Source: Clostridiales bacterium
GTDB lineage: Bacteria > Bacillota > Clostridia > Peptostreptococcales > Anaerovoracaceae
Assembly: GCA_012838265.1 (NCBI GenBank)
Contig: DUPP01000085.1
Span: forward strand, 1-48,615
Length of the DNA stretch: 48,615 bases
Direction of reading: 5' to 3'
Shown here: piece after piece, positions 6,435-10,893 of the stretch
How positions within the stretch are numbered: position 1 is the stretch's first letter
Layout of the letters: every line of letters begins with the position of its first letter
The notes under the pieces: model-generated
Databases searched by the model: none
The model's input: only the letters and a program-made list of their open reading frames with translations
What the model was told of the DNA's origin: nothing
Made by a program: the position numbers and the translations under genes

Positions 6435-6466
6435 GATAAAAGAGAGGCGCCCACCTCTCTTTTATC
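6435..6466. terminator. Hairpin terminator, GATAAAAGAGAGG/CCTCTCTTTTATC
   Basis: 13-bp perfect inverted repeat with A/T flanks. Confidence 0.7.
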
Positions 6467-6556
6467 GTATCTATTATTAAAATCCATAACTACTACTGTG
6501 ACTTATCATTTGTTTTATCCATTACAAAATTTTTTATATAAATTGTTAAATTATTG

Positions 6557-6585
6557 TTGTTATACCCCAGTCACTGGGGTATAAT
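6557..6585 (+). promoter_or_regulatory. Promoter TTGTTA-17-TATAAT whose spacer is filled by palindrome TATACCCCAGTCACTGGGGTATA
   Basis: Direct sequence; palindrome 6561-6583. Confidence 0.75.
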
Positions 6586-6591
6586 GACATT

Positions 6592-6783
6592 AGAATGTTA
6601 AACAAATAACAATATGTATGTTGTTCTGACGCCCGAAGGTTTTTCTGAGGGGAAAGGCACAAAAAATAAAAAGCTTAAATCTTATTCTTATAGCTGTTTT
6701 TTGCGCCTTTAAAGGCGCATTTTTTATTATTAGGAAATATCGCCTGGAAGACAAAAAGTTTTTTGTAATGGAGGATTTATATT
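6592..6783 (+). ncRNA. Structured 5' leader of TM1266-hydEGF with candidate antiterminator/terminator
   Basis: Upstream promoter; AAAGGC duplicated at 6653 and 6711 competing for GCCTTT; terminal hairpin before the gene. Confidence 0.5.
6703..6728 (+). terminator. Intrinsic terminator in leader, GCGCCTTTAAAGGCGC + T-tract
   Basis: Perfect 16-nt self-complementary stem followed by attttttatt, upstream of the first CDS. Confidence 0.75.
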
Positions 6784-7056
6784 ATGGAATCTCGAGTCGC
6801 TTTAATCGGAATTATTGTTGAAAATGAAGATTCTGTGGAAAAAATGAATCTTATTCTTCATCAATTTTCAAAGTATATCATCGGCAGAATGGGAGTCCCC
6901 TATGCTAAGAGAAATATTGCCATCATCAGTATTGCATTGGATGCTCCCGGAGATGTAATCAGCTCGCTTTCAGGTAAGCTTGGAATGCTACCGGGCGTAA
7001 GCACTAAAACTATCTATTCAAAGGTTGCATATACAGAATCCGTGGGTTCCTCATGA
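6784..7056 (+). CDS. TM1266 family iron-only hydrogenase system putative regulator (ACT-like)
   Basis: 90 aa; MESRVALIGIIVENEDSVEKMNLILHQFSKYIIGRMGVPY; next to hydE. Confidence 0.85.
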   Translation: MESRVALIGIIVENEDSVEKMNLILHQFSKYIIGRMGVPYAKRNIAIISIALDAPGDVISSLSGKLGMLPGVSTKTIYSKVAYTESVGSS

Positions 7057-8126
7057 TGAAACGATTAATCGATAAACTTGAAAAGTATCACCAACTAACT
7101 AAAGATGAGTATATATCCTTGATAGAAAACCGGAACCCTGAGATCAGCAGGTATTTATTTGAAAAGTCACGTAATATCAGAGAGCTGCATTACGGTAAAA
7201 AAGTATTTATTAGAGGACTTATAGAATTCACCAATTACTGCAAGAACGATTGTTATTACTGCGGAATACGCAGAAGCAATAAGAATACTTCCCGCTACCG
7301 TTTAACTAAAGAACAGATCCTTGATTGCTGCAAAGAGGGATATCGGCTCGGATTCCGAACCTTTGTGCTTCAGGGGGGTGAAGATAGCCATTACAATGAT
7401 CAGGTTATTATAGATATCATAAAAGGCATCAAAAGTCTTTACCCAGATTGCGCTGTAACTTTATCCATTGGGGAACGCTCATATGAAAGTTATAAAGCTT
7501 ATTATGATGCAGGTGCCGACCGTTATCTCCTCAGACATGAAACTGCCGATCCGATTCATTACAAAAGGCTTCATCCGCCGTCACTTTCACTGGAATCAAG
7601 GAAACAGTGCCTGAATTATCTTAAAGAGATTGGATACCAAGTGGGAAGCGGCTTTATGGTAGGCTCCCCCGGGCAGACTTCTGAAATCTTAGCAGAAGAC
7701 CTGCTGTATCTTCAGGAATTTCGGCCTCATATGGTGGGCATCGGCCCGTTTATTCCCCATCACGATACACCTTTTTTTGCGGAACCTGGCGGCACGGCAG
7801 AACTCACACTGTATATTGTTGGATTGGTCCGGCTTATGCTTCCCTCCGTTCTGCTTCCGGCTACAACAGCTATTGGGACAATCGATCCAGTGGGACGGGA
7901 AAAAGCTATCCTCGCCGGTGCAAATGTTTTAATGCCCAACCTTTCACCGCGGGAAGTCAGAGATAAATATATGCTATACGACAATAAAATCAGCACTGGA
8001 GATGAAGCAGCCGAATGTACTCATTCTATTATAGAGAGCATGAAACTTATAGGATATCAGGTCGTAATTGACCGAGGAGATTTTAAAGGGGATGAAAATA
8101 TCATCCAGGAGGTAAGTAATGTATAA
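7053..8126 (+). CDS. hydE: [FeFe] hydrogenase H-cluster radical SAM maturase HydE
   Basis: FIRGLIEFTNYCKNDCYYCGIRRSN radical SAM motif; operon context. Confidence 0.95.
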   Translation: MMKRLIDKLEKYHQLTKDEYISLIENRNPEISRYLFEKSRNIRELHYGKKVFIRGLIEFTNYCKNDCYYCGIRRSNKNTSRYRLTKEQILDCCKEGYRLGFRTFVLQGGEDSHYNDQVIIDIIKGIKSLYPDCAVTLSIGERSYESYKAYYDAGADRYLLRHETADPIHYKRLHPPSLSLESRKQCLNYLKEIGYQVGSGFMVGSPGQTSEILAEDLLYLQEFRPHMVGIGPFIPHHDTPFFAEPGGTAELTLYIVGLVRLMLPSVLLPATTAIGTIDPVGREKAILAGANVLMPNLSPREVRDKYMLYDNKISTGDEAAECTHSIIESMKLIGYQVVIDRGDFKGDENIIQEVSNV

Positions 8127-9537
8127 TGTAAAATCACCAAAAGCAGAAGAATTTATACATGATGGAGAAATAAGGGACACCTTAGCATATGCTGAGTTAA
8201 ATAAACACAACGCAGCTTTAATTGATAGTATCCTAGAAAAAGCACGGTTGAGAAAAGGTTTATCCCATAGAGAGGCGGCAGTATTGTTGGATTGCGATCT
8301 AGAGGATAAAAATCAGGAAATTTATGCCCTAGCAGAGCAGATGAAGAAAGACATTTATGGAAACCGTATTGTAATGTTTGCACCACTTTATTTATCAAAT
8401 TATTGTGTCAACGGCTGTGTCTACTGTCCATATCATTATACTAACAAGCATATCCCACGAAAAAAACTTACTCAAGAAGATATAGTAAAGGAAGTAACTG
8501 CACTACAGGACATGGGTCACAAACGCCTTGCTATCGAAGCAGGAGAAGATCCCGTAAATAATCCTATTGAGTATATTTTAGAGAGCATAAAAACCATTTA
8601 CAGTATAAAACACAAGAACGGTGCCATTCGAAGAGTTAACGTTAATATTGCCGCTACGACTGTTGAAAATTATAGGAAGCTTAGAGATGCTGGAATCGGC
8701 ACATACATCCTTTTCCAGGAAACATATCATAAGAATAGCTATGAGAAACTTCACCCTACCGGTCCAAAGCATAATTATGCCTGGCATACTGAGGCAATGG
8801 ACCGTGCCATGGAAGGCGGTATCGATGATGTTGGTCTGGGTGTTTTATTTGGTCTGGAATTATATCGCTATGACTTTGTCGGCTTGCTGATGCATGCAGA
8901 GCACCTGGAGGCTGTATACGGTGTAGGTCCTCATACGATTAGTGTACCTCGCATACGTCATGCTGACGGCATAGATGCTAATTCCTTTGAAAATGGAATC
9001 AATGATGATACCTTTGCAAAGGTTGTCGCCTGTATCAGGCTTGCTGTCCCCTACACGGGCATGATTGTCTCAACGAGAGAAAGTAAAAGCTGCCGTGAAC
9101 GTGTCTTACGACTTGGGATCTCACAAATCAGCGGTGGATCAAGAACAAGCGTAGGCGGTTACCTGCAGCCGGAATCAGAGGATGAAAATACAGAACAGTT
9201 CGATGTTATGGATACCAGAAGTCTGGATGAGATAGTACAATGGCTTATGACTCTAGGATATATCCCTAGCTTCTGTACAGCTTGCTACCGTGAGGGGCGA
9301 ACCGGTGACCGTTTTATGACGCTGAGTAAAAACGGAGAAATCCAGAACTGCTGTCATCCTAATGCATTGATGACCCTCAAGGAATACCTGGAAGATTACG
9401 CATCTCCGGAAACTAAAGCACTCGGAGAACGATTAATTCAAAGTGAATTGGTAAATATACCGCGAGAAAAAGTCAGGAATATTGTAATTAATAATCTTGA
9501 GAAAATTCAAAATGGCAGCCGGGATTTTAGACTCTAG
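8119..9537 (+). CDS. hydG: [FeFe] hydrogenase H-cluster radical SAM maturase HydG
   Basis: APLYLSNYCVNGCVYCPYH, C-terminal CTACYREGRTGDRFM motif. Confidence 0.95.
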   Translation: MYNVKSPKAEEFIHDGEIRDTLAYAELNKHNAALIDSILEKARLRKGLSHREAAVLLDCDLEDKNQEIYALAEQMKKDIYGNRIVMFAPLYLSNYCVNGCVYCPYHYTNKHIPRKKLTQEDIVKEVTALQDMGHKRLAIEAGEDPVNNPIEYILESIKTIYSIKHKNGAIRRVNVNIAATTVENYRKLRDAGIGTYILFQETYHKNSYEKLHPTGPKHNYAWHTEAMDRAMEGGIDDVGLGVLFGLELYRYDFVGLLMHAEHLEAVYGVGPHTISVPRIRHADGIDANSFENGINDDTFAKVVACIRLAVPYTGMIVSTRESKSCRERVLRLGISQISGGSRTSVGGYLQPESEDENTEQFDVMDTRSLDEIVQWLMTLGYIPSFCTACYREGRTGDRFMTLSKNGEIQNCCHPNALMTLKEYLEDYASPETKALGERLIQSELVNIPREKVRNIVINNLEKIQNGSRDFRL

Positions 9538-9606: not shown

Positions 9607-10893
9607 GTGAAGGTAACTATGGTACTAAATACTACGCCCTCTTCTGATAGAATCCATATCGGTTTTTTCGGTAAACGTAATGCCGGAAAATCAAGCGTTA
9701 TTAATGCCGTTACAGGACAGCACCTGTCAATTGTCTCAGAGGTCAAGGGAACCACCACTGACCCTGTTTACAAAGCTATGGAGCTATTGCCACTCGGTCC
9801 GGTTATGATGATCGATACACCGGGTCTAGACGACGAAGGAACACTTGGTCATATGCGAATGCAAAAAACCTATCAGGTGCTTAATAAGACGGATATCGCT
9901 GTTCTCGTTGTAGACGGAGCTATCGGTATTTCCGATGAGGATCATTCCATCATCAATCGATTCCGACAGAAAAATATCCCTTTTATTATAGTGTTTAATA
10001 AGTTGGATATTGCTAATACTTCTGCTGCCACTACCTCAAGACCTGCTGCAGGGGCTGTGCCTGAACTTATGCCAGACTTTCCCTCAGATAATACTATTTG
10101 GGTTAGCAGCGTGACCGGAGAGAATATTAACGAATTGAAAGAGCTAATCGCAAGTCAGGTTCACACAAGACAGTCAAAATATCCAATAGTATCTGACCTA
10201 ATAAAACCGTGTGATCTTGCAATTTTAGTTGTGCCTATAGATTCTTCTGCACCCAAGGGACGTTTTATACTTCCCCAGCAGCAAACCATCCGCGACATAA
10301 TAGAAGCTGATGGAGCTGCGGTCGTGGTCAAGGATACCCAGTTAAGCGCAACTCTTGAAAGTTTGGGAACTCCTCCAAGCATTATCATTACCGACAGTCA
10401 GGTTTTTGATAAAGTGGCTTCTATAGTACCTGATAATATACGCCTAACCTCATTTTCCATTTTATTTGCTCGTTACAAGGGAAATCTGGAACTTGCAGTA
10501 AAAGGAGCTGCCTACATCGAAAGATTAAATGACGGAGACACTGTTCTTATTTCTGAAGGCTGCACTCACCATCGGCAGTGTGAAGATATAGGAACGGTAA
10601 AGATCCCCCGCTGGCTGAATGAGTATACAAAAAAGAAATTGAATTTTGAATTCACCAGCGGCACGGAGTTTCCTGAGGATTTATCAAAATATAAGCTGGT
10701 TGTCCATTGCGGCGGATGCATGCTGAACGAGCGGGAAATGAAATACCGACTTCAATGCTCAGATGATCAAAATGTACCCATAACAAACTACGGAATTCTG
10801 ATTGCATATATGCAGGGGATTTTAGATAGATGTATTTCAGTTTTTCCAGATTTTGCACACATGTTAAAAAAGAATAGCAACTTTAAAGAATAG
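9607..10893 (+). CDS. hydF: [FeFe] hydrogenase H-cluster maturation GTPase HydF
   Basis: GKRNAGKSSVINAVTGQ P-loop; C-terminal HHRQCEDIG and HCGGCM cluster ligands. Confidence 0.95.
   Translation: MKVTMVLNTTPSSDRIHIGFFGKRNAGKSSVINAVTGQHLSIVSEVKGTTTDPVYKAMELLPLGPVMMIDTPGLDDEGTLGHMRMQKTYQVLNKTDIAVLVVDGAIGISDEDHSIINRFRQKNIPFIIVFNKLDIANTSAATTSRPAAGAVPELMPDFPSDNTIWVSSVTGENINELKELIASQVHTRQSKYPIVSDLIKPCDLAILVVPIDSSAPKGRFILPQQQTIRDIIEADGAAVVVKDTQLSATLESLGTPPSIIITDSQVFDKVASIVPDNIRLTSFSILFARYKGNLELAVKGAAYIERLNDGDTVLISEGCTHHRQCEDIGTVKIPRWLNEYTKKKLNFEFTSGTEFPEDLSKYKLVVHCGGCMLNEREMKYRLQCSDDQNVPITNYGILIAYMQGILDRCISVFPDFAHMLKKNSNFKE

Follow-up and report, generated by a model that had tools for sequence, protein, structure and literature searches.

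The hydrogenase maturation operon and its leader

The window analysed here, a stretch of 48,615 nt from a Clostridiales bacterium, carries a four-gene TM1266-hydE-hydG-hydF operon whose members were assigned by NCBIfam models with scores well above the cut-offs. The operon is preceded by a leader with its own candidate promoter, a conserved RNA core and an intrinsic terminator (Table 1). The family of the first gene is labelled a 'putative regulator' of the iron-only hydrogenase system, and its ATG at 6784 is the first start codon, 64 nt 3' of the terminator hairpin. This hairpin is a perfect inverted repeat (TGCGCCT-TTAA-AGGCGCA, with the core GCGCCTTTAAAGGCGC at 6703-6718) followed by TTTTTT. 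The leader is more stably folded than its own dinucleotide shuffles (z -2.2, 4/200), and its 5' part contains an AACAA/TTGTT repeat that forms a hairpin restricted to the genus. A preliminary description of this DNA had placed AAAGGC at 6653-6658 and 6711-6716, GCCTTT at 6705-6710 and a perfect terminator in the leader, all of which we re-located at the same positions; the 'GC-rich segment' that it also listed proved to be the conserved core of 6626-6658 and not a loose feature.

Table 1. Coordinates of the operon genes and of the elements found in and around the leader.
Feature	Position	Strand	Description and basis
Candidate sigma-70-type promoter	6557..6585	+	TTGTTA 6557-6562, 17-nt spacer, TATAAT 6580-6585; consensus match
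5' leader of the TM1266-hydE-hydG-hydF operon	6592..6783	+	192 nt; transcription start assumed near 6592
Conserved RNA core, putative aptamer	6626..6658	+	CUGA-CG-[CCC]-GA-[AGG]-UUUU-[UCU]-GA-[GGG]-G-AAAGG-C; R1 model match and covariation
P1 stem	6632-6634 with 6649-6651	+	CCC/GGG in the window; covariation
RA/GA internal loop	6635-6636 / 6647-6648	+	Between P1 and P2
P2 stem	6637-6639 with 6644-6646	+	Apical loop 6640-6643; covariation
AAAGG switching strand and 5' half of antiterminator	6653..6675	+	Duplex energies, predicted fold
3' half of antiterminator	6692..6710	+	Overlaps terminator 5' arm; duplex energies, predicted fold
Intrinsic terminator hairpin and U-run	6702..6725	+	Hairpin 6702-6719, U-run 6720-6725
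TM1266-family gene	6784..7056	+	TIGR03959, PF21699
hydE	7053..8126	+	TIGR03956
hydG	8119..9537	+	TIGR03955
hydF	9607..10893	+	TIGR03918

Two further features lie close by. Between the candidate -35 and -10 boxes is a perfect 23-nt palindrome (TATACCCCAGT-C-ACTGGGGTATA, 6561-6583), which occurs once in the genome, was seen in none of the congeners and, judged by its sequence, is a possible transcription-factor operator. Upstream of the promoter there is a terminator-like inverted repeat, AAAAGAGAGGCGCCCACCTCTCTTTTAT (6440-6470), that could be usable as a terminator in both directions.

A small RNA core with covarying stems

The conserved element was first recognised by comparing the TM1266-homologue leaders of 40 relatives, and 60 loci were added later. 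Congeneric leaders have GTTCTGACGCCCGAAGGT...CTGAGGGGAAAGGCAC in common, and more distant families possess a recognisably similar form, CTAATTGCAAGGA...TCTGAGCAAAAGGT. The general scheme, of about 33 nt, is CURA-[P1]-RA-[P2]-loop-[P2']-GA-[P1']-AAAGG, that is, two short stacked stems around a purine internal loop (RA/GA), with near-invariant CURA and AAAGG flanks that in the window correspond to CUGA at 6626-6629 and AAAGG at 6653-6657. Across loci P1 is variable and 3-4 bp long, P2 has 3 bp and the loop about 3-8 nt. The P1 types seen include UGC/GCA, UAC/GUA, CCC/GGG, CAC/GUG, UCC/GGA, GGC/GCC, AAC/GUU, CGU/GCG and more, and this diversity points to repeated compensation. Our first covariance model (R1; the second is referred to as R2) matched the window at 6623-6664 with 46.1 bits (E 7e-9), and nothing else in that genome qualified as a core (next best E 0.34).

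In 39 leaders, the cells of P1 and P2 together were 99.1% paired and 33 of them were double changes; shuffling gave a mean of 9.1, and 0 of 500 shuffles reached 33. Two larger alignments fitted to the model gave 86 such cells versus 22.1 when shuffled (92 distinct sequences) and 62 versus 9.2 (91 distinct sequences, mostly new matches). Counts of this kind are inflated by the relatedness of the sequences. Among the 92 sequences P1 was paired in 98.9% of cells, with double changes in all three of its pairs, and P2 in 97.4%, with double changes in one pair. Moving the partner by 1-3 columns brought pairing down to 17-67%, and chance folding as the source of the core is ruled out by the covariation together with these slid controls.

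Some leaders contain more than one such unit. About 34 leaders of the window's order (e.g. L020, L039, L040, L047, L062, L085 and L159) carry an extra hairpin 7-27 nt 5' of the core, whose CURAC and RRAGGA flanks resemble those of the core itself; the corresponding pattern gave 36 matches where shuffles predict 1.6, and the hairpin is possibly a degenerate second unit. One leader (L316) has tandem cores at 1457-1497 and 1501-1541, the second of them weak, and another locus (L174) has separate cores at 558 and 4561 that precede hydE and hydG on opposite strands.

The window's core is also crossed by a 32-codon ORF (MYVVLTPEGFSEGKGTKNKKLKSYSYSCFLRL, 6614-6712). Its final codons, in the terminator loop, read SYSYSC, and these amino acids serve in H-cluster assembly, as would suit attenuation by a leader peptide that senses charged tRNA-Tyr, -Ser or -Cys. 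However, this ORF lacks a Shine-Dalgarno (SD) sequence, no ATG-started ORF runs through the core in any of seven congeneric leaders, and the spacing from CURA to CUGAG varies between 14 and 26 nt and falls in every frame. Just 28 of 202 leaders have an ATG ORF through the core, 6 of them with SD-like bases. Given that no conserved short ORF with an SD runs through the leaders, a leader peptide is refuted as the general mechanism, and we hold it to be extremely improbable.

Comparison with known RNA families

None of the 4227 families of Rfam 15 matched at or above its gathering threshold in the leaders of the window and 35 related loci, and permissive thresholds yielded nothing in these leaders beyond sub-threshold chance matches. 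Elsewhere in the window and the 35 loci Rfam identified a tRNA, a SAM riboswitch, and 5S and LSU rRNA. The PyrR site (RF00515) reached 26.4 bits in one leader (L062) against a threshold of 54 bits, with no match listed for the window leader.

Several known systems nonetheless share traits with the element. Like the FMN, TPP and preQ1-I riboswitches it has a conserved core and a switching strand common to the core and a terminator arm, co-controls biosynthesis and import genes of one pathway, and comes in transcriptional and translational versions; it differs in matching no Rfam family and in a regulon made up of H-cluster maturation. The preQ1, SAM-II, fluoride and guanidine-III riboswitches have cores of similar size (about 35-45 nt) that are SD-adjacent in translational forms, whereas the window core nests one hairpin stem within another around an RA/GA internal loop, is flanked by CURA and AAAGG, and shows no evident pseudoknot. 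With the NiCo/czcD ion riboswitches, possible Fe2+ sensors, the element shares a proposed iron link in anaerobic Firmicutes, yet here the window core is again without an Rfam match and the regulated genes are no metal exporters. Finally, the LicT/SacY RAT, PyrR and ANTAR double hairpins also set a leader hairpin against a terminator, and the second upstream hairpin with similar flanks in part of the order recalls them, but in the window core it is the bases of the internal loop, not of the apical loop, that are invariant.

In the openly readable main texts that we searched we found no account of an RNA or riboswitch at hyd maturation genes, though the element may already have been named as an unpublished motif or in a table. 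Hydrogenases are absent from the main text of the pipeline papers PMC11109978 and PMC6429828, and likewise from the main text of the riboswitch reviews PMC9971707 and PMC10043782.

Distribution and genomic context

With R1 the element was detected in 81 of 396 genomes of the window's order and in 17 of 398 across the phylum. R2 was applied to three groups: the order to which Clostridium polyendosporum belongs (66 of 229 genomes with the element), the class of Desulfosporosinus (28 of 84) and a class taken to include Thermoanaerobacter (20 of 37). Added together these counts give a rough upper figure, as some genomes recur between the searches and some low-scoring matches are false; for the related Firmicutes lineages covered, genomes with a match number about 195 out of roughly 1,140. 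Twelve loci (L170, L176, L178, L191, L193, L301, L317, L333, L345, L348, L354 and L356) were judged false on account of low scores, several of them lying clearly within coding sequence.

Among 219 distinct occurrences, 202 lie no more than 520 nt upstream of H-cluster maturation or importer genes. The first gene after the core in these 202 is TM1266 (150), HydG (24), HydE (9), a HydG paralogue (8), an SsuABC-like permease (6), HydF (4) or an ECF S-component (1). The remaining 17 comprise the L299/L336 copy, one copy with HydE 555 nt away, one ahead of an NMT1-type binding protein (L172), one at a contig end (L284), one with a transposase-like ORF inserted (L265), and others that score low and were judged false. 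Many of the early loci had been chosen for TM1266, so model and pattern searches blind to gene content are the test that counts. A pattern scan of GTDB genomes without a gene condition returned 24 matches, in Tepidibacter, Peptoclostridium, Desulfosporosinus, Clostridium, Caloramator, Maledivibacter, Anaerosolibacter, Thermotalea and others, and 23 of them had the H-cluster maturation/importer gene set downstream. The 24th (L221) stops at a contig cut, and a longer copy of that genome (L039) has TM1266. The core therefore occupies 5' leaders of functionally related genes across distant species, both in the full set (202/219) and in the GTDB scan (24/24).

Structural hydrogenase genes are almost absent from this regulon, a sign that cofactor assembly, not hydrogen metabolism, is what it serves. 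In the L299/L336 copy a core precedes an [FeFe]-hydrogenase gene (PF02906) at a distance of about 0.8 kb, and TM1266 in that gene cluster has a core of its own in front; no ORF as long as 50 aa starts in the 0.8-kb gap of L336.

Transporters and a HydG paralogue also stand behind the core. An SsuABC-like importer operon (permease, ATPase and SsuA-like binding protein) follows it in L159, L160, L161, L173 and L327; in L322 ABC genes and then hydG form one operon behind the core, and in L018 a gene for an SsuA-like binding protein ends just 5' of TM1266. This importer is a candidate for a link to H-cluster assembly. An ECF S-component (PF12822-like) comes directly after the core in L190 (position 1501) and after TM1266 in L179, L184, L319-L321 and L350. 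The HydG paralogue has its own core in L163, L166, L315, L318, L326, L343, L357 and L358. In L163 it is 43% identical to the window's HydG, and where HydG has a C-terminal CxxC motif for the auxiliary cluster the paralogue has Cx5C (CTAGYRC), which suggests a different chemistry.

The main rival reading has the leader bound by a protein, of which TM1266 is the likeliest candidate, in a scheme of autogenous attenuation. TM1266 comes first after the core in 150 of the 202 contexts, and 22 of 23 RNA-bearing genomes examined for it have the gene, including those where the core precedes hydG or hydE, so that it could be the partner of the RNA. On the other hand, one genome (G151), a 98% complete draft in which a gene as short as TM1266 is at issue, has three cores (ahead of hydE, hydG and an ABC importer) and no TM1266, and within the window's order TM1266 occurs in 241 of 396 genomes versus 81 of 396 for the core. 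The core moreover combines invariant internal-loop bases with variable stems, the usual look of a ligand pocket. We consider protein binding unlikely, and favour a riboswitch.

Within the riboswitch reading, the signal might be inorganic or redox-related (Fe2+, cyanide, CO or sulfide). In its very small size the core resembles known ion riboswitches, and HydG makes CO and CN- and uses Fe. Against such a signal, the classified contexts include no FeoB iron transporter, Fe-S assembly gene or general redox gene, and both importers come from families best known for organic solutes; we give this sub-case a low probability.

Expression platforms

A terminator follows the core in 75 of 97 leaders. 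The AAAGG strand pairs with the terminator 5' arm at a mean of -10.6 kcal/mol versus -7.0 kcal/mol for shuffled arms (Wilcoxon 4e-13), and CCTT or CTTT is present in 64 of 74 terminator arms versus 41% of shuffled ones. For the window this duplex amounts to -16.6 kcal/mol, which 0 of 200 arm shuffles match. In the variable bases beyond AAAGG the complementarity is weakly leader-specific (own versus other leaders, p = 0.02). Judged by pairing potential, the expression platform and part of the core are thus mutually exclusive.

The predicted minimum free energy fold of 6592-6729 is the antiterminator, in which 6653-6675 pairs with 6692-6710 (-29.1 kcal/mol, versus -26.8 kcal/mol with the terminator forced), whereas among 72 leaders the terminator fold beats the best alternative in 83%, by a median of 3.6 kcal/mol. 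Since the antiterminator is favoured in the window and the terminator in most leaders, equilibrium energies do not fix the direction of the switch.

In terminator-less leaders AAGG merges into the SD site, with the start codon within about 15 nt. Such SD-adjacent cores are found ahead of HydG (L180-L186 and L304-L314), HydE (L169) and the ECF S-component (L190). Two expression platforms on one core are typical of riboswitches. The promoter and terminator of the window delimit a transcript of about 135 nt, which might be taken to act in trans as a small RNA, yet the association with genes is in cis and the translational versions have no separate transcript, making this very improbable.

A probable new riboswitch class

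Taken together, we propose that the leader is probably a riboswitch of a class absent from Rfam that stands before H-cluster maturation and importer genes; that it responds to a small molecule or ion is, we think, quite likely, its ligand binding being putative. The preliminary description had read the leader as an unassigned riboswitch or attenuator with a competition of terminator and antiterminator, recognised no known riboswitch consensus in it, and looked to conservation and covariation at other hyd loci as a test. Its reading is largely borne out: the Rfam scan of the window leader and 35 loci gave no gathering-level match, conservation and covariation of the core extend over some two hundred loci, and the pairing proposed to work the switch is, as a pairing potential, conserved in principle across leaders.

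We favour an OFF switch, by which plentiful ligand would repress H-cluster assembly and the import related to it, since the conserved AAAGG must be freed for expression in both platform designs; we infer this direction with reasonable though not full confidence. Ligand binding would draw AAAGG into the core, where the CU of CURA may pair with the AG of AAAGG (P0). The bases of P0 hardly vary across sequences, and covariation accordingly speaks neither for nor against it. With AAAGG held in the core, the terminator 5' arm would be left unpaired by it, the terminator would form and transcription would stop. Without ligand, AAAGGC and the bases downstream would pair with 6692-6710 and the operon would be transcribed. 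In leaders of the Thermoanaerobacter type, where AAGG abuts the SD site, the same logic would yield translational repression.

With both biosynthesis and import genes under control, the ligand is most likely an intermediate or end product of H-cluster assembly, or else a precursor that can be imported. The regulon, with three maturases, a HydG paralogue, an SsuA/NMT1-family importer and an ECF S-component, is like those of riboswitches for cofactors that cells obtain by synthesis as well as by import. More tentatively, and with a probability that we put well below that of the riboswitch reading itself, the RNA may directly sense an intermediate or product of H-cluster assembly, with the Fe-CO-CN synthon, the diiron subcluster and the dithiolate precursor of the latter as examples; the SsuABC-like and ECF transporters would then be singled out as importing an H-cluster building block.

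Control of [FeFe]-hydrogenase maturation is poorly understood, and a widespread RNA dedicated to hydE, hydG and hydF offers a direct handle on it. Through the core, TM1266, a HydG paralogue, an ECF transporter and a so far uncharacterised ABC importer become linked to one pathway, and with importers tied to maturation in this way, whether H-cluster precursors are imported becomes a testable question. At about 33 nt the core is also convenient for structure work and for biosensors in hydrogen-producing anaerobes. The identity of the ligand would show what the cell measures while it builds the H-cluster, and, if an H-cluster intermediate is indeed what is sensed, this would possibly be the first case of an organometallic hydrogenase cofactor pathway sensed by an RNA.
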